Virus record (IMG/VR): IMGVR_UViG_3300047409_000809
Coordinates: 1-36,858 of that record
DNA from: a virus
Length of the DNA: 36,858 nt
Reading direction: 5' to 3' (one strand)
Shown: positions 2,543 through 34,264 of the stretch, piece after piece
Layout: every line of letters begins with the position of its first letter
How positions within the stretch are numbered: the stretch's first letter is position 1
Translations under genes and position numbers: made by a program
The notes under the pieces: generated by a model
What the model saw: the letters and a program-made list of their open reading frames with translations, nothing else
Database searches by the model: none
Told to the model about the DNA's origin: nothing

Positions 2543-3174
2543 GATGACCATCCCCCGAGCCCACGGCACGCCGGCAGCCAGCGCCGGCAGTCCTCACGGA
2601 GCTGCGCCTCGGCCCGCTGCCACGCCCACGGCACGATGCGCCTACCCGCGAGCGGCTCCTCCCCGGCCAGGATCTCCCACGGATGCGGACAGCGCATCAG
2701 GTCGCGCCATTCCGTGTTGAGCATGATCCGGTCGTAGCGCTCGACGATCACGCCGATGTCGCCGGGCGGCGGCCAGTCGAGCCCCGCGGCCGCGGCGACG
2801 GCACGGTCCATCCGCTCGGTCATCCGCCGGTAGGCGGCGAGGATGACGCCGGAGAGCACCCCGAATTCCGTCTCCGCCACCGCCGCCAGCGCGCGCTTCT
2901 TCGGCGTCGTCTCGTCGCGGAAATAGGCCTCGTGAAAGTCATGGATGAGGAAGTATCCGGCCGCCGCCGCCGGCGCCCCCGACTCGTGCACCGCCAGGGT
3001 CCCGCGCGACAGGTGCTCGGCGACCGAATAGACGGTGTCGGGCGTGGCGCCGTTGTAGCGCGGCTCCTTGGCGAGGTGCGTGCACATCGCGTCGAAGTCG
3101 ATGTCCTCCGGATGCGGATCGAACAGGTCGATCGTCCGCCCATCGGCATGCACGAAGACGGTCTCGCGCCTCAT
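2539..3174 (-). CDS. HD-domain phosphohydrolase (YfbR-like)
   Basis: 211 residues. The order of metal ligands fits the HD superfamily: His in YSVAEHLSRG, then FLIHDFHEAYFRDE (the HD pair with a catalytic Glu), and a distal Asp in VERYDRIMLNTEW. The N-terminus (TIDLFDPHPEDIDFDAMCTH) is typical of phage and prophage YfbR-type 5'-deoxynucleotidase relatives. These remove phosphate from dNMPs and can shift nucleotide pools during replication. It starts at ATG 3174, overlapping the methyltransferase stop. Family is firm, substrate is not shown. Confidence 0.8.
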   Translation of the reverse strand: MRRETVFVHADGRTIDLFDPHPEDIDFDAMCTHLAKEPRYNGATPDTVYSVAEHLSRGTLAVHESGAPAAAAGYFLIHDFHEAYFRDETTPKKRALAAVAETEFGVLSGVILAAYRRMTERMDRAVAAAAGLDWPPPGDIGVIVERYDRIMLNTEWRDLMRCPHPWEILAGEEPLAGRRIVPWAWQRAEAQLREDCRRWLPACRGLGGWSS

Positions 3175-3908
3175 AGCGCCAGCGCCTCCTGCTCATCGCG
3201 CCTCGGCGGCACCTTGACGAACATGTTCGGCTGACGAATCTCGGCCTCGATCCGCTTCCGCGCCGTCGCGAAATGGCCCGCATCGAGCTCGATGCCGACG
3301 AAGCGGTAGCCGGCGCGGAGGGCGGCTATCCCGGTGCTGCCTGACCCCATGTAGGGGTCGACCACGACCGCCCCATCGGCGAGGCGGCATTGCTCGAGCA
3401 CCCAGCCCATCAGCGCGATCGGCTTCTGCGCCGGGTGCACCCGTCGCCCGCTGACCGCCACGTTCTCCTCCCCGCCGCGTACCAGGCCCCGCCAGATGTG
3501 ACTGAACATGCGCCCGGGTCGATCGAGGTTCGTCCAGGCGACCTCGAAATCGGCGTTGTTATCGGGCGGCGTGCCGGCCCGCTTGTCCCACACCAGCCAG
3601 CAACGCGCGTCCGGCAGCCGCGAGGAAAAATGATTGCCGCCGAATAGCACGACGACGGGAAAGCCGAGGAGGTGCGCGGGATCGAATGGCTCATCGTCGC
3701 CGATGATGTGCCGCGATTCCTGCTTCCACGCCGTCATCGAGAACTTGCCGATCGGCCGGCGACCGCCGGTGATCGCGCCATAGTTCATGCCATAGGGCGG
3801 GTCGCCCACGATCGCGTCGACCGGATCCAGCGTCGGCAGGATCTCTCGGCAGTCGCCGAGCCAGAGCTGCACGCGCCCGTCGAGGAGGCTGACCGGCGCG
3901 TTCATCAT
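3171..3908 (-). CDS. DNA methyltransferase (beta-class, N6-adenine/N4-cytosine)
   Basis: 245 residues. The catalytic motif IV comes first (AIVGDPPYGMNYG) and the SAM-binding motif I last (VVVDPYMGSGSTGIAALRAG, then FVGIELD), the beta-class order. The central part (NADFEVAWTNLDRPGRMFSH, HPAQKPIALMGW) is the usual middle of small phage DNA methyltransferases. The DPPY motif fits N6-adenine, though N4-cytosine cannot be excluded. There is no restriction partner nearby, so it is an orphan enzyme, probably protecting phage DNA or regulating genes. Two adjacent ATGs (3908, 3905) follow the C5-methyltransferase stop. Confidence 0.85.
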   Translation of the reverse strand: MMNAPVSLLDGRVQLWLGDCREILPTLDPVDAIVGDPPYGMNYGAITGGRRPIGKFSMTAWKQESRHIIGDDEPFDPAHLLGFPVVVLFGGNHFSSRLPDARCWLVWDKRAGTPPDNNADFEVAWTNLDRPGRMFSHIWRGLVRGGEENVAVSGRRVHPAQKPIALMGWVLEQCRLADGAVVVDPYMGSGSTGIAALRAGYRFVGIELDAGHFATARKRIEAEIRQPNMFVKVPPRRDEQEALAL

Positions 3909-5917
3909 CCCGCCCTCGCCATTTCCGGGCAGTTCGCCCTGACCAGCGCGGCGGCGTGCGGCGGGCAGACGCTGTTGCCGACCATGCGGCCCTTGGCTTC
4001 GCCGGAGAGCGGGCGGCCCTCGAACTCGATGTCGATCCGGTAGTCGGGCGGGAAGCCCTGCGCCAGGAACCGCTCGCGCGCGGTCAGCATGCGCATGCCG
4101 ATGTCGACGATGACGTAGGGCTCGCCGGCGATCGTCACCGTCACCAAGCCGACGCGGTCCCGGCCGGTCACGGTGTGGAGCGGCGCAACCGCGTCCTGCC
4201 ACTGGCCGCCGCTGCCGTAATACTTGGTCAGGAAGGCCGCCACCATCGCGGCATGGTTGGCCTCGGCGCAGAGCGTCTTCAGCGGCTCCTCGGCGCCGTA
4301 GCTCTGCCGCTCCGAGCCCTTCATGTTGAGCATGTGGGCGGCGACCAGGCCCTGCGTGCAGCCCTTGCCGACGATGGTCGAGACCGGCTCGGTCGGTGCA
4401 TGCCCGACCATGTCGGTGTTGTGCTGGGCGAGGAACGCCGCGACCAGGGCATGCCGCGGGTCGCAGGTGACCGTCCTCAGCGGCTCGTCCGCCCGGGCGC
4501 TGCGATTGTCGCCGCCTTGGCCCTCACCGTAATAGGCGGAGAGAACCGGCGCGACCAGCGAGGCGCCGTTGCCGCCAGGCACGATCGTCGACACCGGCCC
4601 ATCGACCGATGCGACGCGAGGATCCTGCCCGGGCCGCTCGCCGTAGCGCGGCACCATGAACGGCGCGACGACGGCATGATTGTTGCCGAGCGCCTGGACC
4701 GTCCCGAGGGGCTCCTCGACCGAGTATTCGCGCCGCCCGCCGCTGTCGCCATGTGCCAGACCGGCAAGGAACGGCGTCACGATCCCAAGCGGCGCCGCCC
4801 CGCCCGGGTGCGTCTCGCTATGCGCCGCCGTCACCGTGTGCAGCGGCTCGTCCACCCGGTGCCCGGTCGAGTTCTGCCGCCACTTCGTCACGAACGGAGT
4901 CACCAGCGCATGCTCGCCGCGATGCGCCGTGGTTTGCGTCCTAAGCGGCTCGCTCGTCCCGTTGCACCGCAGGTCGCCAGCATGCGTCACCGGCACGATG
5001 CAAGAGCCGAGGAACGACGAAGGAGCGACCGGGACCAGGAAAGGCTCGGCCGCATCGATCACATACCGTTTCACCCCGCGCGCGATCCTCGCCATCGTCG
5101 CCTCGGCGAGCGGCCGGTTCACCCGCGTGCCGGTGACCCGGTAATACGCCCGCGCCTCCTCCCGCGTCATGAAGATCGACGGGCAGGGCAGCGACCAGTC
5201 GATGATCTCCGCGGCGGTCCGCCACGGCCTCAGCGAGCCCGCCTTGACCGCGTCCGACTTCGGGTCGCCATGGGTCGGCTCCGGCCACACGATCGCCTTG
5301 CCGTCGCACCGCGCGATGACGAACAGCCGCTTGCGGATCGTCGGCGCGCCATGGGCCGAGGCGCGGTCCTCCCGCCACTCGACGGCATAGCCGAGCCGGC
5401 GGAGCTGCCGCACCCATTCGTTGAACGTCTCGCCCGCCCGCGCCGGGTCCGGCCGGAGCTTGCCCTCGCCGTCCTCGGAAAGCGGCCCCCATTGCCGCCA
5501 CTCCTCGACGTTCTCGAGGATGATCACGCGCGGCCGCCGCTTCTTCGCCCACAGGATCACGATCCAGCCGAGGTCGCGGCTGTTCCGCGCCGCATGGCGG
5601 ATCGGCACGCCGCCCTTGGCCTTGGAGTGGTGCGTGCAGTCGGGCGAGGCCCAGAACAGCCCGATCGGCCGCCCCGGCTCGACCGAATCCGGGTCGACCT
5701 TCCAGATGTTGTTGGAGAGGTGCCGCGTCGCCGGATGGTTGGCGGCGTGCATCGCCAGCGCCATGCCGTCGTGATTGATCGCGACGTCGGGCGAGCGCCC
5801 GAGCGCCATCTCGATCCCGGTCGAAGCCCCGCCGCCGCCGGCGAAGCTGTCGACGATGATCTCCTCGCCCGGCCGCGCCGTCGTCGCCTGCAGGAACTCG
5901 GTGAAGCTCGGGCTCAT
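3905..5917 (-). CDS. C5-cytosine DNA methyltransferase with internal repeats
   Basis: 670 residues. Motif I is VDSFAGGGGASTGIE, motif IV carries the catalytic Cys as FWASPDCTHHSKAKGG (SPDC rather than the usual PPC), motif VI is ILENVEEW, motif VIII is RKRLFVIAR, and motifs IX/X lie in LTARERFLAQGFP and GRMVGNSVCPPHAAAL. Between VIII and IX, about residues 320-590, lie eight degenerate units of roughly 30-36 residues (core EPLxTVT...HALVAPF). This is where target recognition normally sits, and it makes the protein much longer than a typical single-domain enzyme. The start at ATG 5917 overlaps the previous stop. It is an orphan enzyme with no restriction partner. Confidence 0.9.
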   Translation of the reverse strand: MSPSFTEFLQATTARPGEEIIVDSFAGGGGASTGIEMALGRSPDVAINHDGMALAMHAANHPATRHLSNNIWKVDPDSVEPGRPIGLFWASPDCTHHSKAKGGVPIRHAARNSRDLGWIVILWAKKRRPRVIILENVEEWRQWGPLSEDGEGKLRPDPARAGETFNEWVRQLRRLGYAVEWREDRASAHGAPTIRKRLFVIARCDGKAIVWPEPTHGDPKSDAVKAGSLRPWRTAAEIIDWSLPCPSIFMTREEARAYYRVTGTRVNRPLAEATMARIARGVKRYVIDAAEPFLVPVAPSSFLGSCIVPVTHAGDLRCNGTSEPLRTQTTAHRGEHALVTPFVTKWRQNSTGHRVDEPLHTVTAAHSETHPGGAAPLGIVTPFLAGLAHGDSGGRREYSVEEPLGTVQALGNNHAVVAPFMVPRYGERPGQDPRVASVDGPVSTIVPGGNGASLVAPVLSAYYGEGQGGDNRSARADEPLRTVTCDPRHALVAAFLAQHNTDMVGHAPTEPVSTIVGKGCTQGLVAAHMLNMKGSERQSYGAEEPLKTLCAEANHAAMVAAFLTKYYGSGGQWQDAVAPLHTVTGRDRVGLVTVTIAGEPYVIVDIGMRMLTARERFLAQGFPPDYRIDIEFEGRPLSGEAKGRMVGNSVCPPHAAALVRANCPEMARAG
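4150..4965 (-). repeat. Eight degenerate repeats inside the C5 methyltransferase
   Basis: In-frame repeats with recurring cores: SEPLRTQTT, DEPLHTVTAA, EEPLGTVQAL, DGPVSTIVPG, DEPLRTVTCD, TEPVSTIVGK, EEPLKTLCAE and VAPLHTVTGR. Each is followed by a small hydrophobic block such as HALVAPF or GLVAAHM and, in several, by a Tyr/Gly-rich turn. The units are diverged at DNA level, so they are old or under diversifying selection. Confidence 0.8.
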
Positions 5918-6213
5918 GCGTTCCGCGCCCCCAGCCCGCACGCCGAGAGCGCCCGGAAGAGGAGGTCATACGACCCGCGCTTGACCCGGTCGAAGCCCTC
6001 GACCTTTGCGACGATCGCCTCCTCATCGTCGACGAATTTTCCCGCCCGCCAGCGCTCGCGCAGCGCCCCCTTGAAGGGCGGCGTCTTGGTGAGCACGACC
6101 TGGTAGTCGCCGATCAGCCGATCGCCGCCGACATTGGCTATCTCGACCAGGCCGATCGTCCGCTTGCGCGTCTCGTCCCCGCCGGGAAGCATCTCGATCG
6201 TGCAGCGGATCAT
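5914..6213 (-). CDS. Conserved phage hypothetical protein
   Basis: 99 residues from ATG 6213 (ATGA coupling with the upstream gene). It begins MIRCTIEMLPGGDETRKRTI and has alternating hydrophobic segments (LIGDYQVVLTK, DDEEAIVAKVEGFDRVKRG) suggesting a small beta-sandwich. Small proteins with this beginning are common in alphaproteobacterial prophages, but no function is known to me. The reading frame extends to an ATG at 6273, which would run into the preceding gene. Confidence 0.65.
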   Translation of the reverse strand: MIRCTIEMLPGGDETRKRTIGLVEIANVGGDRLIGDYQVVLTKTPPFKGALRERWRAGKFVDDEEAIVAKVEGFDRVKRGSYDLLFRALSACGLGARNA

Positions 6214-6431
6214 GACGCCACCCCGTTCCGCCGCATGTCCAGCGCGCTCTGCCCGGGCAGCGGGTCGCCGCACAGCGCCGCGGTGATCGACCGCGGCGCC
6301 CCCGCATAGGCCGCCGCTGGTGCCCGCTTCGGCGCGCGGTCGGCGAGGTCGCGGCTGAAGCCGCGATGCGCCACCTTGCCGCTCCAGGCGACGCCCTTGA
6401 CCGCCGCCTGCTCTTTCGACCGGTCCCGCAT
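6210..6431 (-). CDS. Hypothetical protein
   Basis: 73 residues starting at ATG 6431, immediately after the TAA of the ParB/MT-A70 gene, and ending in ATGA overlap with the next gene. Lys/Arg/Ala-rich and without predicted membrane segment or known motif. Support comes from its fit in the tightly packed operon rather than from homology. Confidence 0.55.
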   Translation of the reverse strand: MRDRSKEQAAVKGVAWSGKVAHRGFSRDLADRAPKRAPAAAYAGAPRSITAALCGDPLPGQSALDMRRNGVAS

Positions 6432-7973
6432 TTACGCGACCGCCTCCGGCGCGCCCTCGTACACCGGCAGCCCCGTCTCGACCGCGACCGCGTCACGATC
6501 CTTCTTGATCTGCTCGGTGACGTAGACGTCCGGCCGCCACAGCTGGAACCACCATTTCAGCGCGCCGCCGGCGGCCGCGAGCGCGGCGCGTTGATCGTCG
6601 CTGAGCAGGGCGGCGCCGGGGTCGGGCGCCTCGTTCCCCCACGGATCCCAGCCCGGCCGCCCGCTGCGCGCGTTCAGCTCGATCTTGGTCAGCCCGGGGA
6701 AATACGCTTCGATCAGTTCGTACTGCCAGGCCGGCTTCGCACTGTGTCCGCCCGGCGGCGACTCGACCGATGATGCCCATTGCCTCCCCAGCGCCGGGGC
6801 CGGGACGTCGCCGCGCGTGCCGACGAGGAGGAGCTCGTGCGTGTTCCGGAACCAGTAGCCGGTGCCGAGCCGATCCTTCTCCCAGACGACATGCGAGACG
6901 TAGTCGAACCCCCAGGCGCCCATCACCATCAGCGCCTGCGGCAGCATCGGCACCGTCGCCCATAGGAAGAGCACCGCGTCGCGGTCGGCGATCGCTTCGA
7001 CCGGCCGCGACGCGATCACCTCGGCCGCCGAGGTCGGATAGTGATTGTCCGCCGCCCGGTCCATGCCGGTCGCCCGCGACCACGGCTCGAACCGCCACTC
7101 CGGATCCGCCAGGATGACGCCATAGCGCTTGTCCGGCAGCGCCCGCTGCCTCTCGCCGAGGACACGCTCGCGCTCTTCCCGGCGGTCGCGCTTCTCGTCC
7201 TGCTTCTCCCGGCGGAGCTCTTTCACCGCCCCGGCGAACGCCCGCCTGGTGTCGTCGCTCTTCGCCACCTCGAGCACCAGCGCCCGCTGCTGCTCGAGCG
7301 GCAGCGCCTTGACCAGCTCGGCCGCCGCCGACACCGACACCTCGCCGCGGGTCACCGCATCAGCGAGCTCGGGCGCGCCGTCGCGCCGTACGGCTTTCGC
7401 CCGCTCAACCGATCGTTCGCCGACATTCAGGAGCCGCGCCGCTTCCGCGTCGGACTTCGCGCCAATTGGCGCTATGTCCGTCCTGCTGCCGCGCGGCATG
7501 GTCGCCAGCGTCGCGGCAATCATCGATCGCTGGCTTTCGTCGAGATGCCGCCGGTGCAGGTTCTTCGAGATGACGAAGGTGACCGGGTCGCCGCCAAAGG
7601 CGCCGCTGATCCCCTCCTCGCCGAAGTGGACGAAGTTCCAGTCCTCGCGCGGATTGACCTCCGCCGGGAAAACCCCCGCCGCGACGCCGGCCCGGTAGCG
7701 GTTGCGCCCGTCGAGGATCTGGCCCTCGAGGATGACGATCTCCTCGGCGATCCCGTTCGCGGCGATGTCGGCGACGAGCTCGTCGAATTCCACTCCCTCG
7801 ATCAGCGGAAACGCATTGGCGATCGGATGCCCACAGAGACCGCCCGGCACCAGGGGCGCCGGCCCCACGATCGCCGGAACCGCCGCCGCCCCCTCCCCCC
7901 TGGTGGGGGAGGGCTGTTTCTCTTGGCGAGCTTGCGAGCCTAGAGAAACAGGGTCGATGGGTGCGCCGATCAT
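6432..7973 (-). CDS. ParB-like domain / MT-A70 adenine methyltransferase fusion
   Basis: 513 residues. About residues 55-230 form a ParB/Srx-like part: GQILDGRNRYRAG corresponds to the nucleotide-binding box of ParB, KNLHRRHLDESQR to the second box, and EAARLLNVGERSVERA is a helix-turn-helix. A charged coiled linker follows (KELRREKQDEKRDRREER). The C-terminal half is an MT-A70-type enzyme with the catalytic motif as ILADPEWRFEPWS (DPEW variant) and FLWATVPMLPQAL, THELLLVGTRGD. Likely an N6-adenine DNA methyltransferase. The first ~40 residues are partly encoded by inserted palindromic DNA (7891-7951). Start ATG 7973 overlaps the previous stop. Confidence 0.85.
   Translation of the reverse strand: MIGAPIDPVSLGSQARQEKQPSPTRGEGAAAVPAIVGPAPLVPGGLCGHPIANAFPLIEGVEFDELVADIAANGIAEEIVILEGQILDGRNRYRAGVAAGVFPAEVNPREDWNFVHFGEEGISGAFGGDPVTFVISKNLHRRHLDESQRSMIAATLATMPRGSRTDIAPIGAKSDAEAARLLNVGERSVERAKAVRRDGAPELADAVTRGEVSVSAAAELVKALPLEQQRALVLEVAKSDDTRRAFAGAVKELRREKQDEKRDRREERERVLGERQRALPDKRYGVILADPEWRFEPWSRATGMDRAADNHYPTSAAEVIASRPVEAIADRDAVLFLWATVPMLPQALMVMGAWGFDYVSHVVWEKDRLGTGYWFRNTHELLLVGTRGDVPAPALGRQWASSVESPPGGHSAKPAWQYELIEAYFPGLTKIELNARSGRPGWDPWGNEAPDPGAALLSDDQRAALAAAGGALKWWFQLWRPDVYVTEQIKKDRDAVAVETGLPVYEGAPEAVA
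7891..7951. repeat. Palindromic element embedded in the methyltransferase N-terminus
   Basis: Two adjoining inverted repeats: 7891-7913 (CCCTCCCCC ... GGGGGAGGG) and 7914-7951 (CTGTTTCTC ... GAGAAACAG). They encode a low-complexity stretch (SLGSQARQEKQPSPTRGEG) ahead of the ParB-like domain. Similar host-type palindromes occur between genes in many Rhizobiales genomes; that comparison is from memory. Confidence 0.55.
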
Positions 7974-10402: not shown

Positions 10403-10403
10403 C

Positions 10404-10445
10404 GTAGGGCGGATTAGCGCCCCTTCGGGCGCGTAATCCGCCTAC
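10404..10445. repeat. REP-like palindrome, family A
   Basis: Starts GTAGGGCGGATTAGCGCC and ends with the near-inverse GCGTAATCCGCCTAC around a CCTTCGG loop. It occupies the gap between two early rightward genes. The same family occurs at 22996, 24979, 25036, 29032 and 29083. Confidence 0.8.
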
Positions 10446-10472
10446 TTCGCACCGCCCCGGAGAAATCTCCGC

Positions 10473-15132: not shown

Positions 15133-15539
15133 TTCCCCTCGACCGCAACGTCACCATGAACGAGGCGGCCGCCTGGCTCGGCATCGGTCGCACCTGGCTG
15201 CAGCATCTGATCAAGCGCCACCCCCACTATTTCGGGTCGTCGCGCAAGAAGCTATTCTCCGAGGCGCACCTCCTCGCGCTGCGCGCCGCGCTCGAGCAGG
15301 AAGCCCGCGAACAGCTGGCGCGGAAGGAGAAGCCGCCATGCCGTACAAGCTTGTCCCGCCGCGACCGGGCCGCTCGCCCTACTTCTCCGTCCGAGGCACG
15401 CATTGCGGCATCTACCTTGACAAGACTACAGGCCTTGCTGACGAAGCCAAAGCGCGGGCCGTCCTCCGCGCCTGGCGCGACGACGCCGAACGTGGTCGCC
15501 TTTCCCGACCCGGCGAGCCCGTCTTCGCCGACGCGGTAG
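15129..15539 (+). CDS. Excisionase-like HTH protein
   Basis: 136 residues from TTG 15129 (TTGA junction). It begins with a MerR/excisionase-type helix-turn-helix (TMNEAAAWLGIGRTWLQHLI) and a basic wing (GSSRKKLFSEAHLLALRAAL). The last ~67 codons overlap the integrase start out of frame and read as low-complexity Ser/Pro/Arg. Position directly before int supports a directionality-factor role; that is inference. Confidence 0.6.
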   Translation: MIPLDRNVTMNEAAAWLGIGRTWLQHLIKRHPHYFGSSRKKLFSEAHLLALRAALEQEAREQLARKEKPPCRTSLSRRDRAARPTSPSEARIAASTLTRLQALLTKPKRGPSSAPGATTPNVVAFPDPASPSSPTR

Positions 15540-16360
15540 CCGCCTACCTCGAGACCGGCGGCGATCCCCGCTATCTCGGCCGCTACGATCCCACGACCTC
15601 CACCTGGAGCGGCATAACCGGCCGCCTCCTCGAGGTGCGCCTCTCCGAGATCGACCAGGCGCGCATCGACGAGACCGCGATCGCGCTCTACCCGGCCGCC
15701 TCGGCCGCAACCCGCAACCGCCACGTCTACACGCCGATCTCGGCGGTCCTCAAGCACGCCGGCATCGACCGCAAGATCCGGCGGCCGAAGGGCTGGCGGG
15801 GCCGCCCGCGCACCGACTGGATGCAGCCCGAGCAGGCCTTCCGGCTGATCGGCAAGGCCGGCGCCATCGACGCCGAGCTCGGCATCTTCCTGACGCTCCT
15901 TCTCTATACCGGCATGCGGCTCAACGAAGCGCTCAAGCTCACCTGCGACAAGCTCGACCTCGAGGAGGCCTGGTGCTTCACGCCGAAAACCAAGAACGGC
16001 GACCCGCGCATGGTCTTCCTGCCGCCGGCGGCGGTCGCCGCGCTCGCCAACCACCCCGCCGGGCTCGCCCGTCGCGGCCGCGTCTTCCGCTTCAACAAGA
16101 ACGGCCGCCTCTACCAGCTGATGGCGAAGGCCAAGGCCGCAGCCGGCGTCGACGTCGGCTTCGTCACCTTCCACATCTTCCGCCACACCTGGGCGACTTG
16201 GATGCGCCGCTACGCCGGCCTCGACACGACCGGCCTGGTCGCCACCGACGCCTGGCGCGACCGTCAGAGCGCCGCCCGCTATGAGCACGTCGTCGTCAGC
16301 GAGGAAGCCCGCAAGGCCGTGCTCCTGCCAGTGGAGTCCAGGAAGGGGAGAGCCAAGTGA
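15338..16360 (+). CDS. int: Tyrosine-type site-specific integrase
   Basis: 340 residues. Catalytic residues visible: Arg194 in TGMRLNEA, His279 and Arg282 in HIFRHTWATWMRR, and nucleophile Tyr315 in SAARYEHVV. The N-terminus (GTHCGIYLDKTTGLADEAKA) is the arm-binding part and the middle the core-binding SAM-like domain. It catalyses recombination between phage attP and a host tRNA gene; the tRNA-Val 3' half lies 425 bp downstream. The start at ATG 15338 follows GGAAGGAGAAG. Confidence 0.92.
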   Translation: MPYKLVPPRPGRSPYFSVRGTHCGIYLDKTTGLADEAKARAVLRAWRDDAERGRLSRPGEPVFADAVAAYLETGGDPRYLGRYDPTTSTWSGITGRLLEVRLSEIDQARIDETAIALYPAASAATRNRHVYTPISAVLKHAGIDRKIRRPKGWRGRPRTDWMQPEQAFRLIGKAGAIDAELGIFLTLLLYTGMRLNEALKLTCDKLDLEEAWCFTPKTKNGDPRMVFLPPAAVAALANHPAGLARRGRVFRFNKNGRLYQLMAKAKAAAGVDVGFVTFHIFRHTWATWMRRYAGLDTTGLVATDAWRDRQSAARYEHVVVSEEARKAVLLPVESRKGRAK

Positions 16361-22300: not shown

Positions 22301-23066
22301 CGCGGACCTGGCTGTCGACCTCCTCGAACGCCGTCAGCGGGGTCTCGCCGATCTTGATCTGGCTGATCGCGAGCGGCCCGTAGCCGACGCAGAAGAGAAG
22401 GTTGAGGAACTGCTTCTGCCCGGAGAAGAAGGTATAGGGCCGCGCCGCATAGAACGGCGACAGCCGGTGGCGGCCGAGGACGACGGGGATGGTCTCCCAC
22501 GGCCGCGCCTCGTTCTGCGCCCCGGCGAGCATCGGCAGCCCGCGCGAGGCCCGGCTGTCCCCGCTGCCGCTGGCGATCCGCGGCGGCCGGATCGGCACCA
22601 GCGCATTGATCAGGAGCGACCCGCCGATGGTGATGGCGCCGCCGACCAGGGCAGCGCCGACCGAGCCGATGATCGGCCCGAGGATCGGCACGACGAACAG
22701 CGCCGCGATCGCCAGGGCGAGGAACAATCCGGAGCGCAGCGTCTTGTCGTCGCCGGCGACCGGCCGGAACACCACGACGGTGCCGGGCTTCGGCCGGACC
22801 CGCGCCCAGTGCTCGCGCGGCACCCTGACATCGCCGACCGAGGCGACGATCATCTCGCGCGGCCAGTCGTGCCGCGCCTCGATCAGGGCCAGGTCGAGCG
22901 TCTCGGCAATGGTCAGCCCGGCCGGCACCTCGATCTGCCGCAGCTCGTTGCATAAGACATGGTTCGACCCGACGACGCGGACGGTCGCCGCCGGCGTAGG
23001 GCGGAATAGCCGCTCTTCGCGGCGTATTCCGCCTACTTCCGAACCACTATCCGGCCAGCGCACCAT
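19386..23066 (-). CDS. Tail tip / host specificity protein (gpJ-like hub)
   Basis: 1226 residues, the largest gene here. It contains a short hydrophobic hairpin (FLALAIAALFVVPILGPIIG), the TipJ-like hub region (WETIPVVLGRHRLSPFYAAR, GYGPLAISQIKIGETPL, RSFTHGHPVNFPKKLALIAL, YNAVISENRSVREALADIAA) and fibronectin-like domains (PDPTGVVVVTRGDVTRISWV). It forms the baseplate hub and connects to fibres. Residues about 8-24 (GSEVGGIRREERLFRP) are encoded by a family A palindrome. ATG 23066 is the likeliest start; TTG 23081 is possible and no start lies after the repeat. Confidence 0.88.
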   Translation of the reverse strand: MVRWPDSGSEVGGIRREERLFRPTPAATVRVVGSNHVLCNELRQIEVPAGLTIAETLDLALIEARHDWPREMIVASVGDVRVPREHWARVRPKPGTVVVFRPVAGDDKTLRSGLFLALAIAALFVVPILGPIIGSVGAALVGGAITIGGSLLINALVPIRPPRIASGSGDSRASRGLPMLAGAQNEARPWETIPVVLGRHRLSPFYAARPYTFFSGQKQFLNLLFCVGYGPLAISQIKIGETPLTAFEEVDSQVREGYATDAATSLFPVIPSETELAVNLLATDGFVQRRTDTDADQISLDLVAVNGVFRYDHLTGKYADRPVTVNVRYRKVGDVSWTDRPDIVFTRSRDTVRRGDRFDVTRAQYDVQVRKQTAEYSGADTVAEAIQWIALRSFTHGHPVNFPKKLALIALRIRATDQLNGIINTLNLVAESVVAEGYDGSAWHANVISRNPADLFRQVLQGPANARPRSDAQLDLASLEDWWRDCVANDYSYNAVISENRSVREALADIAAAGRATVALRNGKWGVSFPRRSDVTAWHFTPRNFSGFSTQRSYREMPHGLRIRFINQDRGWNEDQRIVYADGYNAGNATVFEAIEVPGVTRSQNVWRHGRFFLAQAELRPETHTLTADAESLRLERGDRVAVTNDVLLVGTGYGRVKSVDGLAQTVTVDSRVLMEVGSAYQVRFRLADGSALIRVVFNTANETDTIALDPDLSTDMPEPGDLFSFGETDRVTRDYRVLDVRPGPDLSAQLTLVDDAPAIDDADTGEIPAYDPGITQPPDPYSLTPQSLTVSERLAGSGIATKALAQLTVQVPRVGTIRAFEFGMLDVDASGDWTGFAVVAAPHLVAERDDLEAGAWRFRVRSLFADGSASTWVESDTVFLLGLLVPPPDPTGVVVVTRGDVTRISWVPVAALNLSHYVVKFSPVTDGSATWGSSLEIALVVTNYAEIPARPGTFSVKAVTFSGIESVNAGAAISFVQATSLPNVVEAIDEDPAFAGVHSGTTVSGSLLELTVDSGGLYGVTGFYQFAGDLDLGAVYTSRLTAVVLAAGNSIGDTMDTWTTLADVPALDSTDPSQWGVRPVYRWTADDPGASGALWSDWIVFSIADQSARAFEFGIWLDGSADGRISPAVSRLGVVVDMTDRHVAEKNLLTGTAPGGLFVPFEPPFKALKAVTVSNANIATGETLQVVSSSAGGATFLAKSAAGAVISRTFDYHAIGYGVEIPTVT
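22996..23036. repeat. REP-like palindrome, family A, inside the hub gene
   Basis: Forty-one bases from GTAGGGCGGAATAGCCGC to GCGTATTCCGCCTAC. Identical to the inverse of 25036-25076. It is translated as the N-terminal tail of the gpJ-like protein. Confidence 0.85.
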
Positions 23067-24969: not shown

Positions 24970-24978
24970 GGGGACCTC

Positions 24979-25076
24979 GTAGGGCGGATTAGCGCCTTTT
25001 CGGCGCGTAATCCGCCTACTTGGAGCGGTGATGAAGTAGGCGGAATACGCCGCGAAGAGCGGCTATTCCGCCCTAC
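24979..25076. repeat. Family A palindromes, head-to-head pair
   Basis: Copy 24979-25019 (GTAGGGCGGATTAGCG...) and an inverted copy 25036-25076 are separated by 16 bp, filling the gap between the DUF1833 gene and the next tail gene. The second copy is identical to 22996-23036 in the opposite direction. A pair of opposed REP-like units resembles a BIME. Confidence 0.8.
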
Positions 25077-25081
25077 GCGCC

Positions 25082-27397: not shown

Positions 27398-27741
27398 TTT
27401 CCCGGGCTGTCCTCCTCGCTGCCGAAGAGGAGCACGGAGAGGATCGCCTGGGCGAGCGGCACCGATTCGGCGAGCGGCGCGTCGTCGACGTAGCGCGCCA
27501 CCAGTTTCAGCGCCGCGGTCGACGCCATGCCGCCGCCGACCAGCCCGAGCCGGATGGTCTCGCGCACGTCGTCGAGCCGCCAGGTCCCGCCGAGGAGCCG
27601 CTTCAACAGCTCCATCGGCCCGCAATCGGTCTTCTCCTGCAGCTCGCGCAGCTGCCCGATCGCGAGCCGGAATTTTTGGCGCCCGTCGGCCCAGTCGGTC
27701 TCGAGCTCGCCGTGCCGGTTCGCTCTTGCTTCCTCGATCAT
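27319..27741 (-). CDS. Tail assembly chaperone (GTA gp10-like, G part)
   Basis: 140 residues. Reads ANRHGELETDWADGRQKFRL, LKRLLGGTWRLDDVRETIRL, VGGGMASTAALKLVARYVDD, the pattern of Phage_TAC_11 / GTA-family gp10. The last ~25 residues after the slip site are low-complexity (RRRPTRPSPMGDSPSPPSTA), as expected of the unshifted product. It precedes the tape measure, whose folding it would assist. Starts at ATG 27741, ATGA coupled to the tail tube gene. Confidence 0.8.
   Translation of the reverse strand: MIEEARANRHGELETDWADGRQKFRLAIGQLRELQEKTDCGPMELLKRLLGGTWRLDDVRETIRLGLVGGGMASTAALKLVARYVDDAPLAESVPLAQAILSVLLFGSEEDSPGKAGRRRPTRPSPMGDSPSPPSTALAQ
27397..27403 (-). promoter_or_regulatory. Programmed -1 frameshift site GGGAAAA
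   Basis: On the minus strand the zero frame reads G-GGA-AAA, a canonical X-XXY-YYZ heptamer close to lambda's GGGAAAG. Slipping one base back enters the second chaperone frame. A G+C-rich potential hairpin (GGGCG ... CGCCC) begins five bases downstream. Confidence 0.75.
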
Positions 27742-28187
27742 GACGAGGCCGCGGTCCAGGTCACCTCGCCGTCCGAGGCGATCTCGACCTCGAGGGTCGC
27801 CTTCTCACCCTGGTTGCCGGTGATGTTGAACGTCGTCAGCACCGCGGCGAGCGAGAAGTAGCCGCCGCCATTGGCGAGCGACTCGTCGAGCGACACCTGG
27901 ATGTTCTTCGAGGCGCCCGACAGGAACCAGTCCTGCCACTCGTCCTTCGATTCCATGGCGAGCACCCCCGAGCCGGTGATCCCGGCCGAGAGCGCGCTGA
28001 CCACCCGCTCGGTCCAGCTCGGCGCGTCCGGATCGTCGCAGTCCGGGACGTTGAAGTCGTTGGTCGCCGCGCTGAAGTTGATGCCCTTGGCGGTCAGCCC
28101 GCACGGCGCCGCGAAGGTCTCAGGGCTCGCGCCGTCGCCGAGCATGATCAAGAGGTGACTGCCGTTCATCGTGGTCGGTTTGGCCAT
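27738..28187 (-). CDS. Major tail tube protein
   Basis: 149 residues. Pattern of GTA gp9 / TP901-1-type tube proteins: GSHLLIMLGDGASPETFAAP, LTAKGINFSAATNDFNVPDC, FLSGASKNIQVSLDESLANG, AVLTTFNITGNQGEKATLEV. Forms stacked hexameric rings of the tail. Located between the terminator protein gene and the chaperones as in related phages. Confidence 0.85.
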   Translation of the reverse strand: MAKPTTMNGSHLLIMLGDGASPETFAAPCGLTAKGINFSAATNDFNVPDCDDPDAPSWTERVVSALSAGITGSGVLAMESKDEWQDWFLSGASKNIQVSLDESLANGGGYFSLAAVLTTFNITGNQGEKATLEVEIASDGEVTWTAASS

Positions 28188-29022: not shown

Positions 29023-29031
29023 TGCACCTCC

Positions 29032-29123
29032 GTAGGGCGGAATAGCCCGCTTCAGGGCGTATTCCGCCTACTTTCAGCCGAAGTAGGCGGAATACGCCGC
29101 GAAGGGCGGCTATTCCGCCCTAC
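29032..29123. repeat. Family A palindromes, second head-to-head pair
   Basis: Copies at 29032-29071 and, inverted, 29083-29123 separated by 11 bp. The second copy overlaps the end of the head-closure gene and supplies its TAG stop codon (29122-29120). With 24979-25076 this is the second BIME-like pair in the structural operon. Confidence 0.8.
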
Positions 29124-29452
29124 GCCGCCACGCCCGCTTCACAGAGCAGGTCGATGAACTGGCGCTTCTCGTCCGGGGTCACGGCGCGGATGTTGTAGAT
29201 CGCGCCGCGCGCGTCGGTGGCTCGCCAGCCCGTGGTGATGCGCAACGCCTCGCTCGACCGCCTGAGGGTGAGCACGACCGGCTGCCGCCCCTCGAGGCGC
29301 GCCGCGATCACGTCCTCGCCGCCGCGCAACGCCTTGAAGCCGGCCCACACCGTGAACTGGTCGACGAAGCCGGATTCCTCGTTGCCGTAACCGTCGGTGC
29401 CGGTGCCCCGCACCGCGAAGGTGATCCTCTCATTGAGCTTTCCGGCCGGCAT
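29120..29452 (-). CDS. Head closure / head-tail adaptor protein
   Basis: 110 residues. Begins MPAGKLNERITFAVRGTGTD, then FTVWAGFKALRGGEDVIAAR and RGAIYNIRAVTPDEKRQFID, the Phage_H_T_join (SPP1 gp16-like) pattern. It closes the head and docks the tail. Its stop lies within a repeat element, so the C-terminal Ala may be secondary. Confidence 0.85.
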   Translation of the reverse strand: MPAGKLNERITFAVRGTGTDGYGNEESGFVDQFTVWAGFKALRGGEDVIAARLEGRQPVVLTLRRSSEALRITTGWRATDARGAIYNIRAVTPDEKRQFIDLLCEAGVAA

Positions 29453-29648
29453 CCGCCACCTCTTCCCCGGTCCCGGTCGCGCCGAAGGCGGCGCTTCTCG
29501 CCTCTTCCGCCACGCCGGCGCGCACCGCCGCTTCGCCGCAAACCCGGCGAACGATCACTGCCTCGGGCCGCGGCCTGAACACGATCGCGACCCGCCCGGC
29601 CCGCTCCGGGATCCGCCAGCGGAACTCGCGGATGAACAGAACCCTCAT
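29430..29648 (-). CDS. Small phage hypothetical protein
   Basis: 72 residues from ATG 29648 (ATGA junction). The first half reads RVLFIREFRWRIPERAGRVA and VIVRRVCGEAAVRAGVAEEA, a short motif common beside connector genes in alphaproteobacterial phages. The second half (SAAFGATGTGEEVADAGRKA) is encoded by a family B palindrome and probably replaces the original end. Overlaps the head-closure gene by 23 bp. Confidence 0.6.
   Translation of the reverse strand: MRVLFIREFRWRIPERAGRVAIVFRPRPEAVIVRRVCGEAAVRAGVAEEARSAAFGATGTGEEVADAGRKAQ
29469..29506. repeat. Dispersed repeat, family B, copy 4
   Basis: Begins GGTCCCGGTCGCGCC and ends GCTTCTCGCCTCTT around GGCGC stems. It is translated as the C-terminus of the 29430-29648 gene. 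Confidence 0.7.
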
Positions 29649-30295
29649 GCGGCGGCCCTTGCCTCGAACCACTGCCGCTGCCGTGGCGTCATTTCCCACG
29701 GGCGCGGCTGGCCATGGAACGCGACGATCCGTGCACCGGCAGGCACCCGCTGCAGCGGGCGGCAATGCAGCTTGAAGCTGACCACCTTGCCCGGGTGCCT
29801 TTCCTGCCAGAGCTCGGGCATGATCGGTGCGTTGAACCGGATAAAGCCCTGATCGCCCCAACGCTCGGTCGTCCGGTACTCCCGCATGAAGCGCTCAGGC
29901 GCCTCGAGGAACGCCGCATAGATCGCCGAGAGGTCCCAGTCCCAGGCCATCACGCCGGAGCCGATGCGCTCGGCCGCCCAGAAATTCCTGAGCACTGTGA
30001 AGCGATGCCCGACGGCGATGTCGCCGAGGCGGCCGACCGCGATCGTGTCGAGGTCGAGATAGAGCACCGGTCCGCCAAACGTCCCCGGTGAAAAGAGCTC
30101 GAGCTTCGACCACCATCCCGGCCAGCCGTGCCTGAGCGGGATGACCCGGTCGACCGCGCTGCCGACGTCCATGTCGGAGAGGCAGACGAGCTGGTGCTTG
30201 ATGCCGAGGTGCCGCTTGACGCCGTCGGCGAGGCGGGCGACGTGCTCGGGGCGGTAGTCGCCGCCCGAGCGGAGGACGAAGGCGACGGTCAGCAC
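29645..30295 (-). CDS. Glycosyltransferase (GT-A, DxD type)
   Basis: 216 residues from GTG 30295, overlapping the FkbM gene stop by 7 bp. Pattern of phage/rhizobial GT8-like enzymes: LTVAFVLRSGGDYRPEHVAR, HQLVCLSDMDV, WPGWWSKLELFSPGTFGGPV, and the metal-binding LYLDLDTIAVG (DxD). Later GSGVMAWDWDLSAIYAAFLE and WGDQGFIRF. It transfers a sugar from a nucleotide donor; acceptor unknown. It is part of a three-enzyme island inside the head-tail module. A longer reading frame upstream is a shadow of the FkbM gene. Confidence 0.75.
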   Translation of the reverse strand: MLTVAFVLRSGGDYRPEHVARLADGVKRHLGIKHQLVCLSDMDVGSAVDRVIPLRHGWPGWWSKLELFSPGTFGGPVLYLDLDTIAVGRLGDIAVGHRFTVLRNFWAAERIGSGVMAWDWDLSAIYAAFLEAPERFMREYRTTERWGDQGFIRFNAPIMPELWQERHPGKVVSFKLHCRPLQRVPAGARIVAFHGQPRPWEMTPRQRQWFEARAAA

Positions 30296-30954
30296 GGCCG
30301 GAGCAACAGGTTCCGCCCGTCGAGCATGCCGGCGCGCCGGTACCCTTCGATCGACCCCATCACCGCCGCCGCCTCGCTTGGCCCGAGCGCCTCGCAGAGG
30401 ATCGCCGGCCGGCACCGCTTCAGCGTCTCGACGGCGCCGCGGAGGACCGCCGGCTCGCCGCGCTCGGTGTCGATCTTGATCGCGGTCACCTCGGCGAGCT
30501 CGAGCGAATCGATCGTCACGGTGCGGATCGGCAGCTTGACGCCCTTCAGGCGGATCAGGCTCGCCCCCGAGGTGAAGGGCACTTTCGGATTGTAGGTGAT
30601 CGTCGTCTCCCCGACGGCGTCGGCGACCGCGGCATCGGAGATCTCGACCTCGACCCGGTTGATCCCAGCATTCTCGACGAGCCGGGCGCGGTTGAACTCC
30701 ATCGGCTCGAAGGCGAGCACGCGGCAGCCGTACTTCGCGGCGGCGATCGAAAACAGCCCGGTATAGGCGCCGACGTCGAGGACGGTGCCGCCGCGCGCGC
30801 AGAGCTGCGCCCACTTGGCGAGGCTCATCGGCTCGAACGGCCCGCGTCCGGCGATCGAGCCGCAGATGCGGTCGCCGGCGAGGACGAGCTCGACGGCCAC
30901 CAGCCCGACGGCGAAACGCATGGTTTCCATCTTTCGGGCCGGGGGCTTCGGCAT
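30289..30954 (-). CDS. FkbM family methyltransferase
   Basis: 221 residues. SAM-binding motif I is GGTVLDVGAYTGLFSIAAA, motif II CRVLAFEPMEFNRARLVENA, and the family-specific IRTVTIDSLEL and AIKIDTERGEPAVLRGAVET follow. FkbM enzymes O-methylate sugars or hydroxyl groups on glycans and secondary metabolites. AGGTGA precedes ATG 30954. Sandwiched between two glycosyltransferase genes, it may methylate the sugar they add; that is inference. Confidence 0.85.
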   Translation of the reverse strand: MPKPPARKMETMRFAVGLVAVELVLAGDRICGSIAGRGPFEPMSLAKWAQLCARGGTVLDVGAYTGLFSIAAAKYGCRVLAFEPMEFNRARLVENAGINRVEVEISDAAVADAVGETTITYNPKVPFTSGASLIRLKGVKLPIRTVTIDSLELAEVTAIKIDTERGEPAVLRGAVETLKRCRPAILCEALGPSEAAAVMGSIEGYRRAGMLDGRNLLLRPC

Positions 30955-30971
30955 CGTTCACCTATCGAGCG

Positions 30972-31790
30972 TCATTGAGCCGCGGGCTGGCCCGCTACCG
31001 GCGGCCGCGCCGTCTCGGGTGCCGGCGCCGGCACGTAGACGATCTGCGGGGCGGCCACGGGTGCCTTGGTGGCCGACGAGATGAAGGCGTAGCCGCCGAA
31101 GAGGAGGCCGGCCGCCGCCACTATGACACCCCAGAACTGGCCGATCCCCTCGGACTTGCCGGTACCCGTCGCCTGGTTGCGCGCCAGCGTCTCGACGAGC
31201 AGGGTGAGCTTGTCCATTTGCGGGTCGACGACGGTCTGCTTGCCCTTGCCCTCGGACGACGACAGCTCGAGCGCCGAGAGCCGCTTGTTGACGTCGGTGT
31301 AGGCCGCCGAGTTGCGCGCCTCCGCCGCGGTCGCCGTATCCGACACCTTCTTGTCCAACGTGGACGCAAGGTCTGTCGTCTGCTTCGCAAGGACAGTGAT
31401 CGCCGTGTTGGCCGCGACTGCTGTCTTGGCGACCTCCTCGCGGTCGACCTGCCGGATGCTGTCCAGCCGGCCCGACTCGGCGTGCTGGATCTTCTCCTGA
31501 TACCCTTCCCGAAGCCTTCCTATCTCGTCCTGGTGCTTCGCGCGCTCCTCGGCGATCTCTTTCAGATGCGCGATCTTCGCTTCGGTCAGTTCCTTGGAGG
31601 CGGCCCGAAGATCATCCTGGCGTCGCGCCTCGGCAATCGTGAGGTCCTTGACGTTCTGCGTCGGGTCTATCGTCGGGCCGCCGCCGGCGTCGACAGGGAG
31701 ACCCCGCGCCGGCACCTTTTCGTGGTTGTCACCGAACTGGTTCACCCTCGCTGACGTGGCCGCCATCGTTGTCCGCCCGGATTTCGTCAC
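30972..31790 (-). CDS. Coiled-coil protein with C-terminal membrane helix
   Basis: 272 residues from GTG 31790 (GTGA junction); ATG 31766 is an alternative. A long coiled coil (about residues 50-190: TIAEARRQDDLRAASKELTE, AHLKEIAEERAKHQDEIGRL) is followed by one transmembrane helix (FWGVIVAAAGLLFGGYAFIS) and a Pro/Ala-rich tail. No family recognised. Its place between glycosyltransferase and FkbM genes is odd for a membrane protein; anchoring the island enzymes or an exclusion role are guesses. Confidence 0.6.
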   Translation of the reverse strand: MTKSGRTTMAATSARVNQFGDNHEKVPARGLPVDAGGGPTIDPTQNVKDLTIAEARRQDDLRAASKELTEAKIAHLKEIAEERAKHQDEIGRLREGYQEKIQHAESGRLDSIRQVDREEVAKTAVAANTAITVLAKQTTDLASTLDKKVSDTATAAEARNSAAYTDVNKRLSALELSSSEGKGKQTVVDPQMDKLTLLVETLARNQATGTGKSEGIGQFWGVIVAAAGLLFGGYAFISSATKAPVAAPQIVYVPAPAPETARPPVAGQPAAQ

Positions 31791-32590
31791 TTGGCCCAGC
31801 GGTGCGAGGCGTAGTTCTTGTGGCTGGCGATGCGGTACGCGACCGGGTCACCAGCCGGCACGTACTTCTCCGGCGTGAAACCCGCCGCGATCGCCTCCTC
31901 GAGGAGCCCGTCGAACAGCGCCTGCAGCTCCGGCCGCCAGTGCGGCAAGACCCTGCCGTCGAACCAGTGCCGCTGCCCGGCCGCGGCGAGCCGGGGCAGG
32001 GCATGCCTGAGGTGCGGCTGGTGCGCCTCCGACGAGTAGTGGATGATCTTGATCCTGGGGTCGCCGAGGTCGGTGAAATCCTCGCCGTCGATGCAGTTCC
32101 AGTGGCCCTGGAAGGCCTGCACCAGGCGCGGGTTCTTGCGGTAGAACTCGGTCATCGAGCGGTGCGACCCGGGCCTCGCCCTGAGCACCGATATCGGCTC
32201 GACGAACTTCGCCGCCGCGGCGCAGTCCCACAGCGACACGCAATAGCGCCAGCTCTCGGCGCCGCCCTTGGCCAGCACCACCTTGCCGGCGGGGATCTCC
32301 TGCCGCCACAGCTCGGCGATGTCGGCCCGCGCGATCACGTCGGAATCCATGTAGATCGCGCGGCCCTCGAAGCCGGACAGCTCCGGTACCGCCCAGCGGA
32401 ACCCCGAGAATGGCGTCGACCAGAGCTCGGTCCGCCAGCCCTGGAAAGGGCTGTCCGCGTCACGGCTCTGCCGCATCCAAATGATCTCGACCGGCAGCGA
32501 GGCGAACTTCCGCAGCGTGTACTCGAGCACGGCCTGGCTCTCGGCATCCTCGCCGTTCGGCGCACAGCCGGCGAAGACCCGGACCGTCAC
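31787..32590 (-). CDS. Glycosyltransferase (GT8-like)
   Basis: 267 residues from GTG 32590 (GTGA junction with the connector gene). Reads VRVFAGCAPNGEDAESQAVL and YTLRKFASLPVEIIWMRQSR, then FEGRAIYMDSDVIARADIAE, whose DSD is the metal-binding motif of GT-A enzymes. Further on are FQGHWNCIDGEDFTDLGDPR and IKIIHYSSEAHQPHL, typical of GT8-like proteins that act on glycans or proteins. Acceptor unknown. Distinct in sequence from the second glycosyltransferase at 29645. Confidence 0.8.
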   Translation of the reverse strand: MTVRVFAGCAPNGEDAESQAVLEYTLRKFASLPVEIIWMRQSRDADSPFQGWRTELWSTPFSGFRWAVPELSGFEGRAIYMDSDVIARADIAELWRQEIPAGKVVLAKGGAESWRYCVSLWDCAAAAKFVEPISVLRARPGSHRSMTEFYRKNPRLVQAFQGHWNCIDGEDFTDLGDPRIKIIHYSSEAHQPHLRHALPRLAAAGQRHWFDGRVLPHWRPELQALFDGLLEEAIAAGFTPEKYVPAGDPVAYRIASHKNYASHRWAK

Positions 32591-33189
32591 AGGAAGATCC
32601 GGTGCGGCCCTAGGAGCTGCTCGACCGACATGGGCACGTCGGCGATCTGCCCGGGCACGATCGGCTCGCGGTAATCGTACCAGTGCGCCACCAGGATCTT
32701 CGCCGCCGTCTTGACGTCGTCGGGCACGTTGGCGGCGCCCTCGCCCTCGGATCCGCCGGAGCCGCCCGACACGCCGGGCTCGTATCCCGCCACGAAGAGG
32801 ACGCGGACCGCGTTGGCGGTGCACAGCGTCGCCGGCCAGCCGTCCGCCGTCGGAATGATCCAGCCGGGCTCGCTGACGTCGTCGACGTAGTAGCCGACGC
32901 TCGGCAGGACCTGCTCGACCCCGTCGCCGTCGACATAGCCGACCGAGACGACCTCGTTCAGCGGTGCGACCGGCAGCTGCAGCTCGCGCGCCGGGAAGGC
33001 GTCGAGCACCAGCTCCCAGGTGGTCAGGGTGAACGACCGGTTCAGCCGCCGGCCGATGTGCTCCCGCGCCGCCCGCACGAGGCCCCGGATCAGCTCGTCG
33101 TCGTCGGCCGTGTCGACCCGCGCATAGGCCTTGGCTTCGTCGAGCGAGACCAGCTCAGTTGCGGGCGATGTGACGATCCTGAGTGCCAC
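32587..33189 (-). CDS. Head-tail connector protein (gp6-like)
   Basis: 200 residues from GTG 33189 with GGAAGG upstream. Diagnostic start LRIVTSPATELVSLDEAKAY and ADDDELIRGLVRAAREHIGR, then YREPIVPGQIADVPMSVEQL near the end, as in Phage_connect_1 (HK97 gp6-like). It forms the ring beneath the portal. A Gly/Ser-rich insertion lies about residues 150-162. A much longer frame upstream is a shadow of the repeat gene. Confidence 0.88.
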   Translation of the reverse strand: MALRIVTSPATELVSLDEAKAYARVDTADDDELIRGLVRAAREHIGRRLNRSFTLTTWELVLDAFPARELQLPVAPLNEVVSVGYVDGDGVEQVLPSVGYYVDDVSEPGWIIPTADGWPATLCTANAVRVLFVAGYEPGVSGGSGGSEGEGAANVPDDVKTAAKILVAHWYDYREPIVPGQIADVPMSVEQLLGPHRIFL

Positions 33190-34264
33190 TGCGGTGCTGC
33201 CCTTCCTGGACGTTGACCCGGTCGCCGGCCGCGCCGAGCGCCACCAGTCGTGGTGCCGCCCGCCTGAGCCGGAGCGCGAACACCGGGAGGGCCTGGTCGG
33301 CTTCCGCGGCGAGCCCGGCCGGATGCGTCTTGATGAACGCCACCGGCAGGGCGGTGTCGGTCTCCCGCGCCATGCCCTGGGGCACGGCGACCGTGAAGGC
33401 GATGTCCGCCTCGATCGCCAGTCCGGCGACGTGGATCCTCGCCGGCGGCGCCGGCGGCGCGGTGTCGTTCTCCTGGGCAAGCCCGAGGAAGGCCCGCTTG
33501 GCGTGTCCCACCGCGGTCGCGGTATCGGTCTCGCCGGTGACCGCGGTCGTGCGGCCCTTGCCGGCCCGCGCCGGGAACGCCGCATCGGTCTCGGCCGCAA
33601 GCCCGATCGGCTGCGTCCGCACCGGTCGCGCGGCCAGCGCGGTATCGGTCTCGACCGCGACGCTGATCCGGCCGGGGATGGTGACCGAGGTGACCTCGTC
33701 GGTCTCGAGAGCGAGGTCGACGGCACGGACCCGGACCGCGCGCATCGCGAAGGCGCTGTCCGCCTCCGTGGCGAGCCCGGCGACGTGGGTCCGGAGCGGC
33801 CGCGCGGCGAGCGCCGCATCGCTCTCGTCGGCGAGACCGGCGACGCGCGACAGGCTGTGGCCGACCGCCTCGGCGCTGTCGCTCTCCGCGGCCGTCCCGA
33901 CCGGGATCGTGCGGACCGGCCGGGCTGCCGGCGCCGTATCGGCCTCGTCCGCCAGCCCGACCGGGCGGACCCGGCTGTGCGTGACGGCGTCGGCGCTGTC
34001 CGTCTCGACTGCCGCCCCGGCCGCATGCACCCGGGCAGGCGGCGCGGCGAGAGCGGCATCGGTCTCGCCGGCAAGACCGATCGCCCGGGTCCGGAGCGGC
34101 CTCGCGAGGAGACCGCTGTCAGCCTCGGCGGCAAGGCCGATCGTGCGCGCGTGGCTGTGGCTGACCGCCAGCCCGGCGTCGGTCTCGGTCGCGAGCCCGA
34201 CCGCAATGATCCGGAGCGGCCGCGCGACGGGATAGCCGAGCGGCCCGAGCCTGGTGAAGGCCAC
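33155..34264 (-). CDS. Tandem 20-residue repeat protein
   Basis: 369 residues. About residues 14-335 are ~16 units of 18-21 residues with core RxxxVGLAxETDxALAxRP; examples are RTRAIGLAGETDAALA, RTQPIGLAAETDAAFP and RIHVAGLAIEADIAFT. The unit is 60 bp at DNA level but diverged, so repeats are not recent. Regular beta-strand/turn spacing suggests an elongated beta-solenoid or fibre. It lies between capsid-side genes and the connector, so a head fibre or decoration protein is plausible. Overlaps the connector gene by 35 bp. Confidence 0.75.
   Translation of the reverse strand: MAFTRLGPLGYPVARPLRIIAVGLATETDAGLAVSHSHARTIGLAAEADSGLLARPLRTRAIGLAGETDAALAAPPARVHAAGAAVETDSADAVTHSRVRPVGLADEADTAPAARPVRTIPVGTAAESDSAEAVGHSLSRVAGLADESDAALAARPLRTHVAGLATEADSAFAMRAVRVRAVDLALETDEVTSVTIPGRISVAVETDTALAARPVRTQPIGLAAETDAAFPARAGKGRTTAVTGETDTATAVGHAKRAFLGLAQENDTAPPAPPARIHVAGLAIEADIAFTVAVPQGMARETDTALPVAFIKTHPAGLAAEADQALPVFALRLRRAAPRLVALGAAGDRVNVQEGQHRSGTQDRHIARN

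Follow-up and report, generated by a model that had tools for sequence, protein, structure and literature searches.

A glycosyltransferase and FkbM methyltransferase cassette between the head-tail connector and head-closure genes of a viral genome, a candidate system for virion glycosylation

Most documented cases of phage virion glycosylation come from mycobacteriophages, and a phage glycosylation cassette as such is an already known kind of system. Here we describe a candidate cassette of two glycosyltransferases (GT1 and GT2) and an FkbM-family methyltransferase in the virion operon of the IMG/VR virus record IMGVR_UViG_3300047409_000809 (all 36,858 bases of the record, hereafter the window). 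In mycobacteriophage Che8, capsid and tail glycans are made by phage enzymes, according to Freeman 2023 as cited in PMC11256854 and PMC12363180. Che8 gp108–gp110 are three transferases, with gp108 combining PF00535 and a PF13578/TylF O-methyltransferase domain, and gp110 carrying PF01755; hence, as in the window, several phage glycosyltransferases stand together with a sugar-type O-methyltransferase. The Che8 enzymes, however, belong to other families, their genes are situated at the 3' genome end and not in the neck module, and the host is actinobacterial. The gtrABS O-antigen clusters of temperate phages also consist of phage-borne glycosyltransferases, but occupy another genomic place and feature a flippase and polyprenol-linked or multi-membrane-span transferases, none of which is present in the window block.

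Two further phages provide links by sequence. PmgQ of phage P1 is 34% identical to GT2, while PmgO and PmgP are relatives of a sialyltransferase-like protein (SiaT, phrog_4603), the commonest companion of GT2. This P1 cluster, with the gene order pmgO-pmgP-ppp-pmgQ, is putatively morphogenetic; it differs from the window block in lying apart from the capsid gene, in lacking FkbM and GT1, and in having a phosphatase gene. In the jumbo phage XacN1, at least two glycoproteins were found by proteomics, and the authors credited other transferases with their synthesis (PMC5852040). XacN1 open reading frames (ORFs) 375–373 (L131:3020–5615), annotated as hypothetical, encode two SiaT proteins and a third one that has a GT2 domain at its C-terminus, and are candidates for the makers of the reported glycoproteins.

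In the window, the minus-strand virion operon spans from ~36.8 kb down to 17 kb. The insertion site is flanked on the left by the head-tail connector/adaptor gene (gp6-like, 32587..33189, minus strand; PF05135 4e-10, phrog_442 1e-29) and on the right by the gene of the head-closure protein Hc1 (29120..29452, minus strand; PF05521 7e-21, phrog_25 1e-20). Between them, all on the minus strand, are GT1 (31787..32590, with a DSD motif), a coiled-coil-like protein (30972..31790, with one C-terminal hydrophobic segment), an FkbM-family S-adenosylmethionine (SAM) methyltransferase, predicted to O-methylate sugars (30289..30954; PF05050 2e-14, phrog_8156 3e-26), and GT2, a glycosyltransferase of the PmgQ/phrog_1962 family (29645..30295, with a DLD motif). 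The original prediction, made from the sequence alone, had placed these four genes here, which we confirm, although it overlooked a small ORF of about 71 aa (29430..29647, minus strand) between GT2 and head closure. A 77-aa ORF resembling it (the likeness was judged by eye) occupies the same place in the cassette-free locus L144, so the small ORF is apparently an ordinary neck-module gene and not a cassette member.

Short stop/start overlaps, 4–8 nt long, are read from the sequence at four of the six junctions: GTGA at connector/GT1 and GT1/coiled-coil, GTGCTGA at FkbM/GT2, and ATGA at GT2/small ORF, with the GTG starts of GT1 and GT2 overlapping the stop codons of the connector and FkbM genes, respectively. 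The small ORF and the head-closure gene overlap by 22 nt, and the coiled-coil gene and FkbM are about 17 nt apart. Thus, two GT-A-type transferases and FkbM are inserted between connector and head closure inside the virion-protein operon and overlap their neighbours; the translational coupling that had been claimed for them fits the overlapping junctions, but is not proven by them. The G+C content of the cassette equals that of its surroundings.

Both glycosyltransferases are predicted to adopt a GT8-type GT-A fold with a DxD motif, the fold family of glycogenin, LgtC, GlyE and the LARGE1 domain, but differ from its known members at the sequence level. GT1 scores 17.9 bits against PF01501, below the gathering cut-off of 24.3, and a PDB sequence search gave no match for it. 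Its AlphaFold model (pLDDT 93) has LARGE1, GlyE, GT8, LgtC and glycogenin as the best Foldseek matches (E down to 2e-9), and the DSDVI (D82-S-D84), WN and HY columns are conserved across 11 phage homologues (48–58% identity), DSD being invariant. Few relatives of GT1 are observed among isolated phages, and 12 in IMG/VR (49–58% identity). GT2 has no Pfam match and is matched over its full length by phrog_1962 (7e-48, profile positions 1–214 of 230), with 12 invariant columns across 38 homologues, including G10, GWW..K, D80/D82, DQ147-148 and S172. The predicted structure of GT2 (pLDDT 97) appears glycogenin-like (TM up to 0.70 to glycogenin at 16–21% identity; best E 1.5e-10). The two proteins have no detectable sequence similarity to each other, and in neither does a hydrophobic segment stand out (KD19 below 1.2). 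Glycogenin and GlyE, both GT8 relatives, act on proteins. The methyltransferase belongs to PF05050 (54.5 bits against a gathering cut-off of 22.7); its SAM-binding motif I reads DVGAYTG, with G62, A63 and G66 invariant in homologues. Sugar O-methylation is the reaction for which this enzyme family is known.

To follow the block elsewhere, we read gene neighbourhoods in about 130 loci found with profiles built from window genes, with assignments of head, protease and terminase genes checked against PHROGs and Pfam. Many phages have GT1-FkbM-GT2 or a variant of it at this position, as a search proposed in the original prediction was meant to reveal; since these loci were picked by GT2 or GT1 similarity, they demonstrate recurrence of the arrangement and not its frequency. 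In IMG/VR, at least 600 stretches contain a match to the GT2 motif; an FkbM-only scan there yielded nothing confirmable, and the GT2 family is uncommon in alphaproteobacterial genomes (14 of 289). Among 64 GT2 loci, non-redundant at 70% GT2 identity, 38 have SiaT, 35 a methyltransferase and 18 FkbM at most 4.5 kb from GT2. Recognised head, neck or tail genes lie within 6 kb in 44 of these loci and are absent from this range in 20. A typical order, from a siphophage (L043), reads portal-protease-head protein-SiaT-connector-GT1-GT2-FkbM-Hc1-neck-terminator-tail tube-tape measure; a shorter one (L021) is connector-GT2-methyltransferase-Hc1. In the T7-like L062 the order is head protein-F4-GT2-tail tubular proteins, and L104 has the same order plus FkbM.

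The nearest sibling, L137, carries GT1-FkbM-GT2 at the window's insertion site and also has the repeat protein, with 51% identity in the connector, 53% in GT1, 48% in FkbM, 57% in GT2, 51% in Hc1 and 70% in the major tail (tube) protein (MTP; 27738..28187 of the window, minus strand). The largest cassette seen (L153:677–6862) comprises a GT-D fused to a methyltransferase, GT1, a sulfotransferase, FkbM, two SiaT, a GT-2-family enzyme and a PmgQ-like enzyme, and its gene content suggests a sulfated glycan. A cytidylyltransferase-like gene (PF01467, L203:4969–5385) lies within another neck cassette, suggesting that certain cassettes supply an activated precursor themselves. As the companion genes include SAM methyltransferases, SiaT-like phrog_4603 and, in single loci, a GT-D, a sulfotransferase and a cytidylyltransferase, they point to assembly of a glycan, and we consider the glycan-building function of the cassette well supported.

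Site preference was assessed in a control set of 80 loci, 51 of them non-redundant, chosen solely by similarity to the window MTP, that is, blind to glycosyltransferases, and annotated alike. Both connector and Hc1 are seen in 34 of the 51. The gap between them is below 1 kb in 25 of these 34, and none of these 25 gaps contains a glycan gene; the gap is 1.3–7.5 kb in the other nine, and eight of the nine hold GT2, GT1, FkbM or SiaT. Moreover, core glycan genes are located 5' of the tail-tube gene in all 12 non-redundant loci that have them and never 3', with the search covering the same length on both sides (binomial p = 2.4e-4). The interruption of the connector to head-closure order is genuine, most relatives having the two genes at most 700 nt apart. 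The original prediction took absence of the block from related phages as a sign against itself; the block is indeed absent from most tail-tube relatives, yet present in about a quarter, a patchiness as expected of an accessory cassette. The ninth large insert, in L187, contains no core glycan family: a radical SAM/SPASM protein (L187:6084–6965) lies there between connector and Hc1, plus a 744-aa protein with a methyltransferase domain, possibly for another kind of virion modification.

On balance, and with moderate confidence, we favour an explanation in which an accessory cassette, expressed late, decorates a virion protein with a short O-methylated glycan. The identities of the genes, their predicted folds and conserved motifs, the overlaps at the junctions, the recurrence and the preferred site are observed, whereas catalytic activities, late timing, an order of steps, an acceptor and a benefit are what this explanation adds by inference. 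The cassette would be an insertion into the virion operon, at its connector/head-closure junction, and would be translated late, alongside head and tail proteins. The soluble, GT8-fold GT1 and GT2 would then put one or a few sugars from host nucleotide sugars on the acceptor, and FkbM would cap a sugar by O-methylation. An abundant, particle-exposed virion protein (capsid, neck or tail tube) as the acceptor would thus give the particle a methylated-glycan coat, which may shield it from host or environmental binders, or alter adsorption or stability. Three points make a virion protein the most likely acceptor: the cassette is tied to capsid and neck genes, it lacks membrane or export functions, and Che8 offers a precedent. 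The original prediction had left open an O-methylated sugar on a virion protein or a change of the host surface; its glycan-building part holds well, while searches for a substrate signature, by Ser/Thr content or by a repeat motif, failed.

Several observations weigh against this explanation. Nothing that we computed identified an acceptor: the C-terminal Ser/Thr content of MTP, the major capsid protein (MCP) and neck proteins gives no clean cassette-linked signature, the comparison being confounded by relatedness. The Che8 glycan genes are not sequence homologues of the window genes and are located elsewhere; BLASTP detected no homology of the window genes to gp108–gp110, nor to the few Myrna genes compared. 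The GT2 family occurs outside the neck in several isolates, namely, beside a tail-fibre gene (Chlobot), near ribonucleotide reductase (jumbo phages), and before terS (phiNP). PmgO, PmgP and PmgQ of P1 are non-essential and dispensable for plaques, according to knock-down and deletion data (PMC10695390). Finally, the neck site also takes non-glycan inserts; besides L187, large non-glycan proteins are found there in the redundant loci L171 and L177, so that this connector/Hc1 junction also serves as a general insertion point.

The last point raises the alternative that this junction is merely a hot spot for cargo and the glycan genes are functionally unrelated to the virion, in agreement with the non-glycan inserts and with GT2 genes found elsewhere in phage genomes. 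A single functional class, however, dominates the inserts (9 of 12, counting redundant loci), glycan genes also occupy the MCP-connector interval and the interval between head and tail tubular genes in T7-like phages, and no glycan gene is seen within 9 kb 3' of the tail-tube gene, so we consider such an indifferent cargo quite improbable. The same recurrence next to capsid and neck genes in T7-like phages speaks against another possibility, namely, a change of host surface glycans (lipopolysaccharide core or capsule) by the cassette, either late in infection or in lysogens, which would prevent progeny from sticking to debris or exclude related phages. Foldseek relatives include LgtC and WbbM, which act on lipopolysaccharide, and soluble peripheral transferases can work at the inner membrane face; furthermore, the block encodes a protein with a membrane segment. 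The window phage looks temperate, judging by an integrase gene (15338–16360), and temperate phages modify O-antigen (PMC11990801). Nevertheless, we find a host-surface role unlikely: the block has none of the gtrABS-type membrane functions, its membrane protein is no constant member of such cassettes, and the genes sit in the virion operon and not beside lysogeny genes.

Phage glycosyltransferases often glycosylate modified DNA bases (discussed in PMC12619734), and the window phage encodes three other DNA methyltransferases, which would suit a role of the enzymes in protecting phage DNA against restriction. A scan of ten non-late genes, early ones included, revealed no base hydroxymethylase or thymidylate-synthase-like gene in this incomplete record. 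The late structural position is unlike that of DNA-modification loci, the known sugar O-methylation by FkbM enzymes also points elsewhere, and we regard this role as very improbable.

Returning to virion glycosylation, we found no report of this set of enzymes, of its neck position or of its breadth across non-actinobacterial phages in the open-licence papers searched, and these features appear to be undescribed. More tentatively, and with slightly less than even confidence, we propose a widespread modular virion-glycosylation cassette, consisting of SiaT, GT1 or GT2 with sugar methyltransferases and occasional sulfotransferase or nucleotide-sugar genes, in the capsid-neck interval of siphophages and of T7-like phages; the P1 cluster would be a relocated form of it. 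If this is true, glycan-coated particles would be common among phages outside actinobacteriophages, with a bearing on adsorption, persistence and immune recognition. Since P1 carries PmgO/P/Q relatives and single-gene P1 knockouts exist (24 of 29 in a survey had no plaquing defect, PMC9024508), the question is testable in a laboratory model.

Two window proteins were considered further, one as a cassette member and one as a common substrate, and rejected in these roles. The coiled-coil-like protein (KD19 maximum 1.94 at residue 219), counted as one of the four genes of the block in the original prediction, is not common to other cassettes: its sole IMG/VR relative is in L130, a locus with no recognised glycan gene, L006 and L052 lack it between GT1 and FkbM, and in L137 its place is taken by a 325-aa phrog_2518 protein of unknown function. 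The repeat protein directly upstream of the connector (33155..34264, minus strand, 369 aa; phrog_14065 1e-9), encoded with spaced DNA repeats, is composed of many imperfect ~20-aa repeats, A-x-E-T/S-D-x-A, with a conserved E-T/S-D core. It had been suggested as a glycan substrate and is an unsupported candidate for this role, but as a common substrate it fails, as no other compared locus has four or more copies of the motif; a partial match is seen only in L137 (37% over 120 aa).

No packaging, portal or capsid genes are recognised in the window record, and they are probably located beyond its ends. REP/BIME-like palindromes (GTAGGGCGGAATAGCC ... GGCGTATTCCGCCTAC) occupy four intergenic gaps of the window (10403–10447, 22992–23048, 24978–25078 and 29031–29127); a simple pattern search found none in the sibling loci L137, L005, L138, L143 and L144. 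The three DNA methyltransferases are clustered at 3171–7973 and comprise an N4/N6 enzyme (PF01555), a C5 enzyme with internal repeats (PF00145) and an MT-A70 enzyme (PF05063), with a NusG-like protein encoded nearby (487–1521).

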